Source of the DNA: Gemmatimonadota bacterium
Lineage (GTDB): Bacteria; Latescibacterota; UBA2968
Direction of reading: 5' to 3'
DNA length: 36,415 nucleotides
NCBI GenBank assembly: GCA_026706845.1
Contig: JAPOXY010000021.1
Span: forward strand, 1 to 36,415
The translations under genes were made by a program, and so were the position numbers. Positions 4,807 through 20,974 of this stretch are shown here, one piece after another (position 1 is the first letter of the stretch; each line of letters starts with the position of its first letter). The notes beneath the pieces are model-generated. The model was not told the origin of the DNA. It ran no database searches and saw only the letters and a list, made by a program, of their open reading frames with translations.

Positions 4807-6204
4807 TTATGAGGGGGCAGGGAGTGTGCGGTCGATCTGGTCGTGTTTGTATCCAAAGCCGGGACCTTCGACGGTGGAGATGTCGATGTGGCCGTTTTGT
4901 CGGCGATAGAGACCGGGGTGTACGGCGGCTTCGGGGATTGAGGCGTCGGGGTAAAATTGCATGGCGTTGGTTTCAAAGCCCATGACGGTGCCGGCATGGG
5001 CGGTGAGGAGGGCGTGGGGAATTTGCGCGAGCATGGGATTTGTGAGGTCCTGTACCATGAGTGTCATGCCGTGTGCGCGGGCCCAGCAGAGGGAGAGCAG
5101 GGCGCCGGTCTGGGTTTTGCAGGTTTTGAGTGCGACGCCGGTCCAGCCGAGTTGTCGTCCGAGGCAGATGATGCGCCAGTCGTGCGCGCTTTCGTCCATG
5201 AAGAGGGGTTTGCGCGCGGAGATGCTGTGTACAGGGAGGGGGTTTTCAGAGAGTTCGTAGGCGAAGGGCTGTTCGACGTAGAGGATCATTTGATAGATGC
5301 GCGGGTGGTCGGTGAGGAGGCGGTCCAGGATGTCGTTGACGTAATCGACCTGTTGGACGGTGCAGTTGAAGTCTGTACACAACCACATGGCATTGTGTTC
5401 GATGCCGATTTGCCCGACGCGGACGATGCGGTCGTAATCCCATCCGGGTTCTTGTCCGGTGAGTTTGATTTTGAGGCAGGTGATGCCGTCGCGCCGTATC
5501 CAGTCGGGCAGGACTACGGGATAGCCGTCGTCGGGTTCATCGCCCGTGCGTTCGGCGTCGTCAAGGAGGTCGTTGCCGCCTACGGCGTGCCAGGCGGGCA
5601 GGCGGTTTGGTCGCGGGCGGGTGAGGTAGTTTTCGGGATAGCGACCGGCGAAGTTGGCGTCGATGTCGTCGGCGGGGTCGAGGTAGTGCGAGAGGTCGGC
5701 GTTCATGAAGTCTGCGTTGTACGTGTCGTAGATGTCGATGTTGTGGAGTACTCCGTATGCGTCGTGCAGGGCGAGGTCATAGGCCGAGGCGCAGACGAGC
5801 GCGGATAGGCGGGGCATGTCTCCTGTGGTGTTTTGTTGTTCGATGTTGAAGGCCGAGAGGAGGTCGGGGAGGATGTTTTCCTGAAATGCGTGGCCGATTT
5901 CGATGGGGTGACCGGCGGTGTCGATGTCTGCCCATGCGCGTCCGATTTTGAGGCAGAAGTTTTTCATGGCGGTTTCCCGGATGGCGTATGTGAGGTGTGG
6001 CGATGGCCATGCCCAGGGCGCGCTCAAGGGGGTTTCTCCCCAGCCAGAAGCGGTGTTGCCCTGCCGGTCTTCGACGTCGATGCGCACTCTTACGCAGGTG
6101 ACGCTGTCGAGTTGTTCGGTGCCAAAGCGATAGGGTATGCGCGTTTGGACGGGGAGGAAGTAGGTGGCGACGGATTTGATTTTTATGTCTGTTGGTTTGG
6201 GCAT
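4807..6204 (-). CDS. Enolase-superfamily enzyme, muconate-lactonizing (MLE) subgroup
   Basis: A 465-residue protein with an N-terminal capping domain and a C-terminal TIM barrel of the mandelate racemase/muconate-lactonizing type. The catalytic set is complete: K245-x-K247 on the second strand (CLKIKL), metal ligands D278 (LCTDFN), E311 (YVEQPF) and D337 or E338 (FMDESA), and the opposing base K360 (GVALKTCKT). A KxK motif plus a distal lysine marks the MLE subgroup (muconate cycloisomerase, o-succinylbenzoate synthase, dipeptide epimerases, N-acylamino-acid racemases). At 465 residues it is longer than most members, with an acidic insert near residues 160-230. It overlaps the end of hisC by 22 bp and precedes hisB, which is an odd place for this family. 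It is likely an active enzyme acting on a carboxylate substrate; which one cannot be told. Confidence 0.8.
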   Translation of the reverse strand: MPKPTDIKIKSVATYFLPVQTRIPYRFGTEQLDSVTCVRVRIDVEDRQGNTASGWGETPLSAPWAWPSPHLTYAIRETAMKNFCLKIGRAWADIDTAGHPIEIGHAFQENILPDLLSAFNIEQQNTTGDMPRLSALVCASAYDLALHDAYGVLHNIDIYDTYNADFMNADLSHYLDPADDIDANFAGRYPENYLTRPRPNRLPAWHAVGGNDLLDDAERTGDEPDDGYPVVLPDWIRRDGITCLKIKLTGQEPGWDYDRIVRVGQIGIEHNAMWLCTDFNCTVQQVDYVNDILDRLLTDHPRIYQMILYVEQPFAYELSENPLPVHSISARKPLFMDESAHDWRIICLGRQLGWTGVALKTCKTQTGALLSLCWARAHGMTLMVQDLTNPMLAQIPHALLTAHAGTVMGFETNAMQFYPDASIPEAAVHPGLYRRQNGHIDISTVEGPGFGYKHDQIDRTLPAPS

Positions 6205-15328: not shown

Positions 15329-15466
15329 GAAGTGTGAAGATGGATTGATGAAAAAATAGGTGCTTCCAGGGCCTCTACGCTTTTGTATTGCAAGAGAAAT
15401 ATTTTACCTTATTTTTTCCGTATTCGCAGTATTCGCAGAGAAAGCCATTTTACAAGGGAGGTTGTT
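15329..15466. other. Intergenic leader before first Cache gene
   Basis: A 138-bp AT-richer gap between the recombinase and the first multi-Cache gene. It opens with one partial copy (15330-15339) of the AAGTGTGAAG unit that recurs at 34462 and 35551. A 9-bp direct repeat, TATTCGCAG twice, lies at 15421-15438. The ribosome binding site AAGGGAGG is at 15454-15461. The last part resembles the leader of the second Cache gene (17095-17154), so the duplication included upstream DNA. No convincing -35/-10 pair and no terminator hairpin after the recombinase were seen. Confidence 0.5.
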
Positions 15467-17077
15467 ATGTTTCGGGATGTTTGTCGCGTGTTCGTGTTGG
15501 CACTGGTGGCCGGTGCGATGTGGGTTGGTGGTAATGCACAGATCACGAGTTCTTCCGCGATGGCCGCCGATGACGACGATGCGCTCACAAAAGCTTATGT
15601 GATGAAGGCCATTGAGCGTTACCAGCGCGATGGGCGGGAAGCCGCACTCGCATACTACAATAGCCGAGAAAGCATCGAAGGCGAGCGGTTCATGAATATC
15701 ATTGACCCGCAGCAAAGCGTCATACTGGCAAGCGGTTTATCCACTCGCGTCGGTGCGCCCGCGCCCGCCCTCGGTCCAGTCACTCCGGAAGGTATCTGGA
15801 TGGATCATCAAGATATTCATCACATAACCCGACAGTTAGGCCCCAAGCGCAGCTTCCTCATTCGGCACGATGATCTCGTTTTCATGGCCGGGCATTTCAC
15901 GTTGCAAGAAAATCTGGCCGACGTCACCCGCAATTACATCGCCAAAGCGATCGCGCACTACGGCCGAGAGGGCCTGGAAGCGACTGTCGCGTATTACAAC
16001 AGCCGGGAAAGCGTGGATGGGCATTTTTATTTGTTCCTCATCGGGGCCGATGATCTCTACCTGGCACATCCCATTTTCCCGCACCTGATCGGCACGGACA
16101 TCAAGGACGTGGTGGGTTCGGACGGTCAAGAATTGGGCAAGGAAATCGCCGAGGCGACCGAGGAAGGCCATTGGGTGGAATACCTGTGGCCGAACCCGGT
16201 AACACAGCGGGAAGAACACAAGGCGGCCTGGGTGGTGCGCCACGACGGGCTGATCTTCGCATCGGGCTACTACACGTCAGATACCGAGGCCGGGTCGCCG
16301 CCCTGGCAGGGTGCCGATCCGAGGGAGTACACCGTGGCGTACGTGCAACGGGCCATTGAACGCTACAAGAGCGATGGCCTGGAGGCGATGAAGGCATACT
16401 ACAACAGCGTGGCCTCCATTGAGGGCGAGTGGTATTTGTTCGCCACCGACGCGGACGACATCTATCACGTCCACCCGCTGATTTCCAAACTGATCGGCAC
16501 GGACCTCAAGGATGTGGTGGGTTCCGATGGCTACGAACTGGGCAAGGCGCTGGTCAAGGCGGAGGAAGGCGTGGGTGTTTGGGTGGAATACCTGTGGCCG
16601 CATCCGGTGACGCTGGCGGAGGTTCCCAAGGTGGGCTATGCCATCCGGCGCGATGGGCTGCTTTTCGCTTCGGGCTATTACCCTGCCCCAGAGAGTCCCG
16701 AAGCGGGCACTAAGGCATACGTGCAGGCTGCGATAGATAAGTATAAACAGGAGGGCCTGGAAGCTACAGTCGCCTACTACGGCAGCCGGGAGAGCATTGA
16801 AGGCCAATCGTCTCTGTTCCTGATTGACGAGAATGGCCGCATCGCTGTCTTCCTTGTTGCGCCCGGAGCGGTGGGTCTCAACATCGAGAGCGTTAAGGTA
16901 CCCAGCACCGGATTTGAACTTGGCAAAGAAATAGTGCGTGCGACCGAGGCCGGGCACTGGATTCACTACCAGCGGCCCAACGTGAGAACCGGCGTAATCC
17001 TGGATGCACATGCATGGGTGATTCGCTACGATGGTCTGGTTTTCGGCTCGAGCTACTTTGGCGAACCGGCCGATTGA
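15467..17077 (+). CDS. Exported protein of four tandem Cache-like domains (copy A)
   Basis: A 536-residue exported protein. The signal peptide (MFRDVCRVFVLALVAGAMW) is followed by a probable cleavage site near GGNA-Q. Four repeated units follow at about residues 40-154, 155-288, 289-414 and 415-536. Each has the pattern AYV-AIERY-GLEA-AYYNSRESIEGEWYLF, D-DD-Y-HP, LIGTDIKDVVGSDGYELGKEI, GHWVEYLWPNPVT, and RHDGLIFASGYY. This resembles single-Cache (sCache_2-type) extracellular ligand-binding domains of chemoreceptors and sensor kinases. No membrane anchor or cytoplasmic signalling domain follows, so it is probably a soluble periplasmic or secreted binding protein. Unit 1 is the most diverged. 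I start at ATG 15467 because AAGGGAGG lies 5 nt upstream and the signal peptide begins there. The ligand is unknown. Confidence 0.75.
   Translation: MFRDVCRVFVLALVAGAMWVGGNAQITSSSAMAADDDDALTKAYVMKAIERYQRDGREAALAYYNSRESIEGERFMNIIDPQQSVILASGLSTRVGAPAPALGPVTPEGIWMDHQDIHHITRQLGPKRSFLIRHDDLVFMAGHFTLQENLADVTRNYIAKAIAHYGREGLEATVAYYNSRESVDGHFYLFLIGADDLYLAHPIFPHLIGTDIKDVVGSDGQELGKEIAEATEEGHWVEYLWPNPVTQREEHKAAWVVRHDGLIFASGYYTSDTEAGSPPWQGADPREYTVAYVQRAIERYKSDGLEAMKAYYNSVASIEGEWYLFATDADDIYHVHPLISKLIGTDLKDVVGSDGYELGKALVKAEEGVGVWVEYLWPHPVTLAEVPKVGYAIRRDGLLFASGYYPAPESPEAGTKAYVQAAIDKYKQEGLEATVAYYGSRESIEGQSSLFLIDENGRIAVFLVAPGAVGLNIESVKVPSTGFELGKEIVRATEAGHWIHYQRPNVRTGVILDAHAWVIRYDGLVFGSSYFGEPAD
16067..16710 (+). 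repeat. 644-bp duplicated block, copy 1 (identical to 18118-18761)
   Basis: By eye I find no mismatch between this block and 18118-18761 at a constant offset of 2051 bp. It covers the end of Cache unit 2, all of unit 3, and the linker into unit 4. Just outside it the copies differ at many positions: 16066 is A where 18117 is G, and 16711 is T where 18762 is C, with more synonymous and coding changes beyond. The sharp edges suggest gene conversion or a very recent exchange inside an older duplication. Confidence 0.85.
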
Positions 17078-17154: not shown

Positions 17155-19128
17155 ATGTTTCGAGATGTTTGTCGCGTGTTCGTGCTCGCGCTGGTGGCTG
17201 GCGGGCTGTGGAGTTGTGGTGGGGATCGTGTGACGCAGTCTCAGGTGGCAGAGGAGCAGGTTGGTCGTCCGTTGAGTAAATTGGCAGCGGCCGGGCATTC
17301 TCTGGTCGTGGTGGCGACGGTGCACGAGGATGAGGGGCCAGTCAGTGGTGTGATGGTAGAGTTTTCGCGTTCTGTTGCGGGTCAGTCTGCGAGCTATGAC
17401 TGGTCGGGTATGACGGATGATGAGGGTCAGGCGCAGATAGAGATTACTGGCGGCAGTGGGTATTATCAGGCGCGTGCTGTGCAGGATGGGAGTGAGGTAG
17501 GTTCGTGGTCGAGCATCCCGTTGAATGCGGGTGCTGAGGTGATGTTGTCTTTGCCGATAGGTGGCAGGGCGCAGGTTCTGAGTTCTCCGCCGATGGCCGC
17601 CGATGAAGACGACGCGCTGACCATGGCCTTTGTGATGAAGGGCATTGAGCGTTACGAGCGCGATGGGCGGGAAGCCACGCTCGCCTACTACAGCAGCCAG
17701 GAGAGCATCGAAGGCGAGCGGTTCATGACTATCATTGACCCGCAGCAAAGCATCATACTGGCAAGTGGTTTATCCATTCGCGTCGGTGCGCCCGCGCCCA
17801 CTGGCGCACCATTCCCCCCGATGGAAGAAGTGCCTACGGAAGGTCTCTGGGTGGATCATCAAGATATTCATTCCATAACCCGACAGTTAGGCCCCAAGCG
17901 CAGCTTCCTCATTCGGCACGACGACCTCGTTTTCATGGCCGGGCATTTCACGTTGCAAGAAAATCTGGCCGACGCCACCCGCAATTACATCGCCAAGGCG
18001 ATCGCGCACTACGACCGCGAGGGCCTGGAAGCGACCATCGCGTATTACAACAGCCGGGAAAGCGTGGACGGGCAGTTTTACCTGTTCCTCATCGGGGCCG
18101 ATGATCTCTACCTGGCGCATCCCATTTTCCCGCACCTGATCGGCACGGACATCAAGGACGTGGTGGGTTCGGACGGTCAAGAATTGGGCAAGGAAATCGC
18201 CGAGGCGACCGAGGAAGGCCATTGGGTGGAATACCTGTGGCCGAACCCGGTAACACAGCGGGAAGAACACAAGGCGGCCTGGGTGGTGCGCCACGACGGG
18301 CTGATCTTCGCATCGGGCTACTACACGTCAGATACCGAGGCCGGGTCGCCGCCCTGGCAGGGTGCCGATCCGAGGGAGTACACCGTGGCGTACGTGCAAC
18401 GGGCCATTGAACGCTACAAGAGCGATGGCCTGGAGGCGATGAAGGCATACTACAACAGCGTGGCCTCCATTGAGGGCGAGTGGTATTTGTTCGCCACCGA
18501 CGCGGACGACATCTATCACGTCCACCCGCTGATTTCCAAACTGATCGGCACGGACCTCAAGGATGTGGTGGGTTCCGATGGCTACGAACTGGGCAAGGCG
18601 CTGGTCAAGGCGGAGGAAGGCGTGGGTGTTTGGGTGGAATACCTGTGGCCGCATCCGGTGACGCTGGCGGAGGTTCCCAAGGTGGGCTATGCCATCCGGC
18701 GCGATGGGCTGCTTTTCGCTTCGGGCTATTACCCTGCCCCAGAGAGTCCCGAAGCGGGCACCAAGGCATACGTGCAGGCCGCGATAGACAAGTACAAACA
18801 GGAGGGTCTGGAAGCCACCGTCGCCTATTACAGCAGCCGGGAGAGCATCGAAGGCCAATGGTCTTTGTTTCTGATTGACCAAGAGGACCTCGTCGCTGTC
18901 TTTCTTGCCGCGCCCGGAGCGGTGGGCCGCCCAATAGCGTCCTTTAGGATACCCAGCACCGGATTTGAACTTGGCAAAGAAATAGTGCGTGCGACCGAGG
19001 AGGGGCACTGGATTCACTATCAGCGGCCCCATGTGCGAACCGGCGTAATTCTGGATGCACATGTATGGGTGATTCGCTACGATGGTCTGATTTTCGGGTC
19101 GAGCTACTTTGGCGAACCGGCCGATTGA
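17155..19128 (+). CDS. Lipoprotein with Ig-like domain and four tandem Cache-like domains (copy B)
   Basis: A 657-residue paralogue of the preceding protein. Its first 16 residues match copy A, but the signal peptide then ends LWSC-GG, a plausible lipobox with the lipidated cysteine at residue 21. A segment absent from copy A follows (about residues 40-135): SLVVVATVHEDEGPVSGVMVEF...YDWSGMTDDEGQAQIEITGGSGYYQARAV. It has the look of a beta-sandwich (bacterial Ig-like or carboxypeptidase-regulatory-like) domain. Four Cache-like units come next at about 155-274, 275-409, 410-535 and 536-657. Most of units 2 and 3 lie in the 644-bp block shared with copy A. GAGGGAG lies 6 nt before the ATG. It is probably tethered to a membrane as a ligand-binding lipoprotein. 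No signalling output domain is present. Confidence 0.75.
   Translation: MFRDVCRVFVLALVAGGLWSCGGDRVTQSQVAEEQVGRPLSKLAAAGHSLVVVATVHEDEGPVSGVMVEFSRSVAGQSASYDWSGMTDDEGQAQIEITGGSGYYQARAVQDGSEVGSWSSIPLNAGAEVMLSLPIGGRAQVLSSPPMAADEDDALTMAFVMKGIERYERDGREATLAYYSSQESIEGERFMTIIDPQQSIILASGLSIRVGAPAPTGAPFPPMEEVPTEGLWVDHQDIHSITRQLGPKRSFLIRHDDLVFMAGHFTLQENLADATRNYIAKAIAHYDREGLEATIAYYNSRESVDGQFYLFLIGADDLYLAHPIFPHLIGTDIKDVVGSDGQELGKEIAEATEEGHWVEYLWPNPVTQREEHKAAWVVRHDGLIFASGYYTSDTEAGSPPWQGADPREYTVAYVQRAIERYKSDGLEAMKAYYNSVASIEGEWYLFATDADDIYHVHPLISKLIGTDLKDVVGSDGYELGKALVKAEEGVGVWVEYLWPHPVTLAEVPKVGYAIRRDGLLFASGYYPAPESPEAGTKAYVQAAIDKYKQEGLEATVAYYSSRESIEGQWSLFLIDQEDLVAVFLAAPGAVGRPIASFRIPSTGFELGKEIVRATEEGHWIHYQRPHVRTGVILDAHVWVIRYDGLIFGSSYFGEPAD
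18118..18761 (+). repeat. 644-bp duplicated block, copy 2 (identical to 16067-16710)
   Basis: Second copy of the block described at 16067-16710, lying inside the lipoprotein version of the multi-Cache protein. No base difference was found by eye, while flanking sequence of the two genes is clearly diverged. Confidence 0.85.
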
Positions 19129-19243: not shown

Positions 19244-20974
19244 ATGGCGGAAGTCAGGCAGGTAAATGAGGGTATTCGCTACGAACCAGACGACAAATGT
19301 CCCCGGTCTGTAGCCATACTCTCTGCCGTTCAGATGGCATCGCCAAATATCGTCATGGTCGTGGTGTTTACGACTGTGGTCATTCGATCATCGGGCGAGA
19401 CCGGGGCCTATTTGCCGTGGGCCGTGTTTATGGCCTTGATAACGTGCGGATTCACGTCAATTATTCAGGCTTTCCGTGGTCGAATCGGGACTGGACTTCT
19501 CATTTTGACGGGTTTCAATATCCCTTTTATCGCGATCTCTACGCTTGCCTTAGAAAAAGGCGGACCGGGCTTGCTGGCGATTTTGACCGTTGTCTCGACG
19601 CTCGTTCAGTTGGTGCTCACGATGTACCTTCCGCTGTTGCGCCGAATATTTACGCGAACCGTCAGTGGCACAATTGTGATGTTGGTCGCAGCTACGGCAG
19701 CTCCCTTCCTGTTTAACGATGTTGTGAAATCGACACAGAATTTGCCCGTTGATCGCGTTATCGCGACCCTGACAATATCTTTGTTTGTTGGGGTACTGAT
19801 AATTTTGCGTGCGCCACAGACCTGGCGGCTGTGGATAGTCGGTATCACCATTTTGGCGGGTCTGATTGTCGCAGTGCCTTTGGGGTTGTACGATAACAGC
19901 GGTGTGGTCGAAGCTGCCTATATTGGTTTTCCCGTTCCCGTCTGGGAAGGTTTGGATTTGACCTTTGGCGTTGAATTTTGGGGACTTCTGCCGGCTTTTA
20001 TCTTTGTCGGTTTGGTGACTTTTGTGAAGGCTGTTGGGGATATTGGCGTGATCCAAAGAGCTTCGCACCGAGAGGTACAGGCACAGGATTTCAGAGTTGT
20101 TCAAGGCGGTCTCAATGCCTACTCCGTGGGCAATTTGATCGTGGGCTTTCTGGGCATTCCCTCTGCCACGACGCCCTGGGCACTCACTGCAACGTATGTC
20201 TCTCTTACAGGCGTGGCTACGCGGATTGTGGGTGTGTACATGGGGTTGTTTATGATCGGGGTGGCATTTTTGCCCAAGTTGGGGGCTTTTCTCATTGCGA
20301 TTCCGAGTCCGGTTCTGGCGGCTGTCTATATCATCGTATTTGGCGGGCTTTTCGTGGAAGGGGCAAAGGTGGCGTTCGATGATAAGATTGATCATCGCAA
20401 GAGTATCGTCATCGCGGTATCGATAATGGTTGGGCTTTCTTCTGGGAGTATTGCTGGATTTTTTGACGGGTTTGTGCGCGAGTTGCTCGATAGCGGGGTT
20501 ACGGTGGGAAGCCTGACGGTTATTGGCATGACGCTTTTGGTGGAGCTGACCGGTTCGCGGCGGAGAAAAATTCAAGTGCCGCTGGAGTTGTCTGCATTGC
20601 CCGCGATTGACGAGTTTCTCGTTGCGTTTGCCGAGAAATACGGTTGGACGGAGAGCGGGCAATACCGCCTGCGTTCGGTCGGGGAGGAGATGCTGGTGAG
20701 TCTTGTGACGGAGGATGAAAAGGAATCTTCCAGTACACCGCGGCAACTGATCATGAGTATTCGCATGGATAATGGGGTAGCAGAGGTTGAATTTCTGGCG
20801 GCTTCGGATGGCGAGAATATCGAAGACCAGATCGCGTATTTGGGTGAGGATGCGTATGCCGAGGATGATCACGAGTTTTCGATCCGGCTTTTGCGGCATT
20901 ACGCTTCATCTGTGCATCATCGGAAGTATGAGGGGATCGATGTTATTACGGCTCGGGTGGAGAATGCGATGTGA
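19244..20974 (+). CDS. NCS2-type nucleobase permease fused to C-terminal HATPase/RsbW-like domain
   Basis: A 576-residue protein. Residues about 20-430 form a multi-helix transporter of the NCS2 (xanthine/uracil permease) type: ITCGFTSIIQAFRGRIGTGLL, then LVTFVKAVGDIGVIQRAS, GIPSATTPWALTATYVSLTGVATRIVG, and FLPKLGAFLIAIPSPVLAAVYIIVFG. The family imports purines, pyrimidines or urate with H+ or Na+. Residues about 435-576 are soluble: LPAIDEFLVAFAEKYGW, YRLRSVGEEMLVSLV, and a closing FSIRLLRHYASSVHHRKYEG. This layout is like anti-sigma-factor kinases (RsbW, HATPase_c_2). However, the N-box asparagine is replaced by Ser (EEMLVSLV) and the usual DxGxG ATP lid is not evident, so ATP binding is doubtful. 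An AGGGGATG site precedes the ATG. It may be a transporter with a built-in signalling partner. The substrate is unknown. Confidence 0.72.
   Translation: MAEVRQVNEGIRYEPDDKCPRSVAILSAVQMASPNIVMVVVFTTVVIRSSGETGAYLPWAVFMALITCGFTSIIQAFRGRIGTGLLILTGFNIPFIAISTLALEKGGPGLLAILTVVSTLVQLVLTMYLPLLRRIFTRTVSGTIVMLVAATAAPFLFNDVVKSTQNLPVDRVIATLTISLFVGVLIILRAPQTWRLWIVGITILAGLIVAVPLGLYDNSGVVEAAYIGFPVPVWEGLDLTFGVEFWGLLPAFIFVGLVTFVKAVGDIGVIQRASHREVQAQDFRVVQGGLNAYSVGNLIVGFLGIPSATTPWALTATYVSLTGVATRIVGVYMGLFMIGVAFLPKLGAFLIAIPSPVLAAVYIIVFGGLFVEGAKVAFDDKIDHRKSIVIAVSIMVGLSSGSIAGFFDGFVRELLDSGVTVGSLTVIGMTLLVELTGSRRRKIQVPLELSALPAIDEFLVAFAEKYGWTESGQYRLRSVGEEMLVSLVTEDEKESSSTPRQLIMSIRMDNGVAEVEFLAASDGENIEDQIAYLGEDAYAEDDHEFSIRLLRHYASSVHHRKYEGIDVITARVENAM

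Follow-up and report, generated by a model that had tools for sequence, protein, structure and literature searches.

SLC26/SulP transporters, exemplified by SLC26Dg, share two features with the protein described here: a membrane domain of the 7+7 transmembrane (TM) fold and, directly after TM14, a cytosolic domain drawn from an anti-sigma partner switch (PMC6497670). In SLC26, this STAS domain influences TM13, TM14, and transport; the SLC4 and SLC23 families are stated to hold no C-terminal domains (PMC6497670). The proteins differ in the half of the switch that they carry: SLC26/SulP has the STAS (SpoIIAA/RsbV-like) half, whereas the present family joins a predicted RsbW/SpoIIAB-like half to a membrane domain of SLC23 type. 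UapA and UraA of the NCS2/SLC23 group have their fold and Pfam family in common with our protein, but they are without a C-terminal domain and contain the TM8 glutamate and the QNxGxxxxT signature, both of which it has lost. The anti-sigma kinases RsbW, SpoIIAB, and UsfX resemble its tail in fold, order of elements, and N-box glutamate; the tail differs from them in being fused to a transporter and in having lost the ATP-site asparagine, DxGxG, and GxG. The transceptors CbrA and Ks-Amt5 likewise combine a transporter and a GHKL-type domain in one chain (PMC7096432, PMC5764959), but there the signalling part is an active histidine kinase joined to an SLC5 or Amt fold, whereas the present family carries a pseudo-anti-sigma domain. 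A transporter with a cytosolic signalling-type domain is a known kind of protein. The combination of an SLC23 fold with an RsbW-type tail is a new form, and no description of such a permease was found in the papers searched.

The protein is encoded in the 36,415-nucleotide stretch of contig JAPOXY010000021.1 that was analyzed as a whole (the window), by a real open reading frame of 576 residues with an ATG start (19244-20974, + strand). The sequence-only reading of this DNA had proposed an NCS2 permease fused to a degenerate HATPase-like tail, which is confirmed here. PF00860 is the sole Pfam match to the whole frame (residues 25-399, E 2.6e-31; 109 bits against a curated cut-off of 27), and a separate domain of about 140 residues follows the membrane part. 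The full-length AlphaFold model, built from 38 relatives (mean pLDDT 81), matches UapA, SVCT1, and UraA, then SLC26 structures; its last membrane helix ends at about residue 436. On the basis of this model, the membrane part is a predicted SLC23-fold transporter with 7+7 TM helices, and homology to the same structures places the C-terminus in the cytosol. The features are collected in Table 1.

Table 1. Features of the tail permease, its upstream neighbors, and example loci linked to polyketide synthase (PKS) genes. Coordinates refer to the window except in the last three rows.
Feature	Coordinates	Strand	Basis
Second Cache-repeat gene upstream, lipoprotein-like	15383..17077	+	sCache_2/dCache_2
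Cache-repeat lipoprotein-like gene directly upstream, possible partner	17155..19128	+	sCache_2/dCache_2; homologue beside related permease
Predicted SLC23/NCS2-fold membrane domain, residues 1-436	19244..20551	+	PF00860 and full-length model
Lys262 in TM8, in place of the UapA substrate Glu (CECIGD)	20027..20029	+	UapA alignment
Region of the nucleobase-transporter signature QNxGxxxxT, not conserved, residues 314-322	20183..20209	+	UapA alignment, relatives
Predicted C-terminal RsbW/SpoIIAB-fold pseudo-ATPase domain, residues 437-576	20552..20971	+	Model, PDB Foldseek, conservation in paralogues and across phyla
Degenerate N-box EEMLVS (residues 481-486), with Ser for Asn and Glu retained	20684..20701	+	RsbW alignments, family frequencies
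FLAASDGENIED, residues 517-528, in place of the lost G1 box DxGxG; family motif EENLED	20792..20827	+	Exact column pairing uncertain
EFSIRLLRH, residues 544-552, in place of the G2 box GxG, now ExS; best-conserved tail block	20873..20899	+	Alignments
Permease, alpha/beta hydrolase, phosphopantetheinyl transferase, and single large PKS	L066 6448-12418		
Same gene set	L049 6777-11999		
Same gene set	L094 6446-12421		

At the TM8 position, lysine is present in 75% of relatives, glutamate in 12%, and arginine in 3%. The frame falls under the NCBIfam cut-offs of both the nucleobase:cation symporter (TIGR00801, 125 against 291.8 bits) and xanthine permease (TIGR03173, 138 against 414 bits). Because the TM8 glutamate is replaced by lysine and QNxGxxxxT is lost, a plain nucleobase seems an unlikely substrate; the substrate may be an anion.

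That the tail is a degenerate RsbW-type domain is supported by its predicted fold and by weak HATPase_c_2 matches of sister tails. The tail model (AlphaFold, 18-row tail alignment, mean pLDDT 78, parts below 50; both models are monomers only) predicts the order strand, two helices, two strands, short helix, helix, two strands. Its top 19 Foldseek matches in the PDB are all anti-sigma factors (UsfX, RsbW, SpoIIAB; E 2.6e-7 to 4e-4), and the tail is predicted to fold as RsbW, not as an SLC26-type STAS domain. Structure prediction had been named beforehand as a possible refutation of the RsbW-type assignment, and the fold that came out is of the related RsbW/SpoIIAB type. The profile search with HATPase_c_2 (PF13581) gave a divided answer: the window tail has no Pfam match at all, and two of the genome's five tails match weakly (best E 4e-4; 20.7 bits for the best sister tail against a curated cut-off of 27.4). 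Alignment of the tail with the same genome's own RsbW by hhalign reached E 0.005 at low probability, and a five-row tail profile searched against the sequences of solved structures gave nothing but unrelated weak matches. Since the hhalign probabilities are low, the claim of homology is based on the fold and the order of motifs.

The ATP-site residues are degenerate throughout the family. The sequence-only reading had noted serine in place of the N-box asparagine and no visible DxGxG, and had added that the domain possibly no longer needs ATP. Both observations hold (EEMLVSLV, residues 481-488, with serine at the RsbW asparagine position), and the proposal is consistent with the family-wide loss of the N-box asparagine, DxGxG, and GxG. 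Pairing with RsbW by hhalign sets EEMLVS against EELIVN, the strand end FLAAS against IIDDG, and EFSIRLLR against GLGIHLMR. The first and last of these pairings are reproduced by MAFFT over 106 tails; its placement of the G1 box is ambiguous, and the end of the predicted strand agrees better with the hhalign alignment, but DxGxG is absent under both placements. Across 108 tails, the N-box glutamate is kept in 100%, the asparagine position holds serine in 77% and threonine in 10% (asparagine is not among the common residues), and the two G2 glycine positions hold Glu/Asp in 97% and serine in 98%, turning GxG into ExS. The glutamate is all that the family retains of the ExxxN, DxGxG, and GxG motifs of anti-sigma kinases. 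Near-invariant new motifs are present, namely EENLED and ExSxRLLRHYASSVxH.

Selection acts on the tail much as on the permease. The dN/dS of the tail is 0.09-0.31, similar to that of the permease part, for pairs with enough change (the window pair has too few), which indicates purifying selection. Tail conservation, the second possible refutation set beforehand, was found among the homologues. Judged from sequence comparison, the tail is a conserved pseudo-ATPase and not a relic. Chance or a frame artefact as the source of the frame and its tail is ruled out by these ratios and by conservation at no fewer than 568 loci.

The fusion is not confined to this locus. In this genome, five permeases carry the tail and two further PF00860 proteins lack it; the window tail is 39-47% identical to those of the four other permeases, and an additional match on contig C74 is interrupted by the contig end. 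A survey of the same architecture found it to be common: all 11 genomes of the genus carry the tail, as do 24 of the 64 sampled from the phylum, and a profile search of contigs of other genomes gave at least 568 related loci. About ten phyla carry related loci; the best 80 of the at least 568 are named Latescibacterota/Gemmatimonadetes, Chloroflexota, Acidimicrobiia, Acidobacteria, Opitutales, Immundisolibacterales, Binatia, Dadabacteria, and others. Many genomes hold 2-9 copies. Every tail-bearing gene called also matches the permease profile, and the called family permeases without a tail are truncated by contig ends or have broken frames. Short tail-only frames also turned up in the genome surveys, some of them at contig ends. 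In even draws from whole phyla, the tail was confined to the reference genome in two cases (247 genomes from the phylum of L094, 299 from that of L141) and present in about 25 of 251 genomes in the third (phylum of L083); these draws also gave weak partial matches with E near 1e-3. The plasmid collection searched for the family contained no match.

Several genomes hold tandem, non-identical tail permeases (L055 6922-10721, L133 2964-6429, L117 4687-8212, L094 2610-6435), which could form heterodimers; in the tandem pairs of Acidimicrobiia, the tail of the first copy contains an insertion. At L045 (4848-7328, genome G024), the end of the tail is missing from the permease frame, which reads on instead into an Ig-like segment similar to the beginning of the Cache proteins, possibly through fusion, frameshift, or assembly error.

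The family is likely to belong to sponge symbionts, as every record with a traceable host is one. The isolate prefixes RHO, COS, IRC, and APA, found in 28 of the best 80 records among the at least 568, fit sponge species (PMC8163846). When 110 permease parts were placed on a tree, the Chloroflexota label switched 11 times (starred branches force no fewer than nine of these) and the Actinomycetota label six times; this is a quick tree with long branches, the counts are inflated by paralogues, and binning errors in metagenome-assembled genomes (MAGs) are possible. These label changes suit an apparent transfer between phyla.

In the window, two tandem Cache-repeat genes lie immediately upstream of the permease (Table 1). 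A 57% identical Cache protein adjoins one of the window copy's nearest relatives in a Chloroflexi MAG (L148 4201-6165), and the permease and the Cache protein may be passed on together. A protein with a weak match to the enolase C-terminal domain (4810-6204, - strand) is encoded in a histidine-type row of genes, with hisB-like and aminotransferase genes on either side. Elsewhere in this genome, on contig C66 (L046 9079-11529), another tail permease has three such genes about 6 kb away, for an RsbV-like STAS protein, a response regulator whose output is RsbU-like, and an RsbW-like protein that is intact; a set of this kind is also near in a genome of the same genus.

One paralogue per genome is usually linked to a PKS. 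For 13 genomes chosen for variety before their neighbors were read, together with four of the same phylum, a single strong PS-DH match in a large PKS was present in 15 of the 17. A tail permease lies within 13 kb of the PKS in 11 of these 15 (0.38 expected; P ~2e-15, an optimistic value as the genomes are partly related). An alpha/beta hydrolase, a phosphopantetheinyl transferase, and a PKS occur jointly within 6 kb at 24 of the best 80 of the at least 568 loci, and the grouping is seen in many phyla; the gene caller yields some shadow frames, and neighbor clusters were checked by Pfam and phmmer. The window copy is not the linked one and falls on a different branch of the tree from the PKS-linked copies.

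This linkage recalls SupE (ABE03914, clone pAPKS18), a permease from the sup PKS cluster found in symbionts of Aplysina aerophoba (PMC3908369). The Plakortis fosmid PS11G3 has a SupE-like permease, ORF17, near swfA and flanked by the anti-anti-sigma genes ORF15 and ORF18 (PMC3908369). Like the present family, SupE is a permease beside a widespread sponge-symbiont PKS, and its relative ORF17, at 557 residues, has the length of a permease plus tail. No C-terminal domain of SupE is described in the papers searched, and the window copy, unlike SupE, is not next to a PKS. Comparison with the published description makes it very likely that the tail-permease family is the SupE family.

We give a probability of about 50% to the following reading, which draws on the computed anatomy, predicted fold, ATP-site loss, purifying selection, constant fusion, spread over many phyla, and PKS linkage of one paralogue. 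The protein would be an SLC23-fold transporter with a nucleotide-independent cytosolic regulatory or assembly domain of the RsbW/SpoIIAB fold. The tail would no longer switch on ATP and would instead be a fixed domain, in contact beneath TM14 with the transporter or with its dimer partner by analogy with STAS in SLC26, probably through the newly invariant motifs EENLED and ExSxRLLRHxASSVxH. The linker between TM14 and the tail is short, and the tail sits where STAS sits in SLC26. Counting against this reading are the weak sequence link to HATPase_c_2 and models limited to monomers, in which parts of the tail score below pLDDT 50.

A doubtful alternative is that the tail holds or releases a sigma factor or STAS anti-anti-sigma protein depending on the state of transport and in this way links transport to transcription, such as that of nearby polyketide genes. 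The RsbW fold of the tail and the C66 copy near an rsbV-, rsbU-, and rsbW-like set agree with this, and the anti-anti-sigma genes beside the SupE-like permease and swfA on PS11G3 (PMC3908369) favor it and speak against the regulatory-domain reading. The survey for nearby partner genes went the other way. Of 64 tail genes in 15 genomes, none has a STAS (PF01740) gene within 6 kb (0.9 expected) and four have one within 10 kb (1.5 expected), so a STAS partner in the neighborhood was rejected for lack of enrichment. The window itself contains no STAS or sigma gene, and its sole regulator is a sigma-54 activator. Furthermore, the SAR202 genome G072 has nine tail permeases and just two STAS matches, both of SulP size. 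Given these counts and the missing linkage, an external canonical RsbV partner is not required.

It is unlikely that the former nucleotide pocket has been re-tooled as a sensor of substrate, product, or cofactor that gates transport allosterically, and no ligand can be named for it. The near-invariant new residues around the former pocket motifs would nonetheless suit such a role, as would the fully conserved N-box glutamate, which may indicate continued binding of some ligand and which counts against a nucleotide-independent tail. RsbW-type proteins are dimers. As SLC23 transporters are dimers too (PMC6497670) and tandem tail-permease pairs exist, the tail might only keep the RsbW dimer contact and pair permease protomers, including tandem non-identical ones; SLC23 dimers form without such a tail, however, and we consider this improbable. 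A functionless, vestigial tail, though its ATP-site residues are gone, is ruled out by dN/dS far below 1 and scarcely deserves credence given columns invariant across phyla and called family permeases without a tail that are cut by contig ends or broken frames.

Building on the reading of the tail as a fixed regulatory domain, a broader account is possible but speculative: one half of a partner switch may have been built permanently into SLC23-type transporters in nucleotide-free form, as a mirror of the SLC26 STAS domain, and spread between sponge-symbiont phyla, with one branch accompanying polyketide genes. It would couple transport of a non-nucleobase, probably anionic, substrate to a cytosolic signal. 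In studies of the 7+7 TM superfamily, a cytosolic domain at the C-terminus is regarded as a distinguishing feature of SLC26 that SLC4 and SLC23 lack (PMC6497670). A large family of the SLC23 fold that carries the other partner-switch half offers a way to examine how control of transporters by such domains arises, and poses the question of whether a dead anti-sigma kinase can control a transporter without ATP. As the permease family is tied to widespread, unexplained PKS clusters of sponge symbionts, it also bears on what these clusters make or move.
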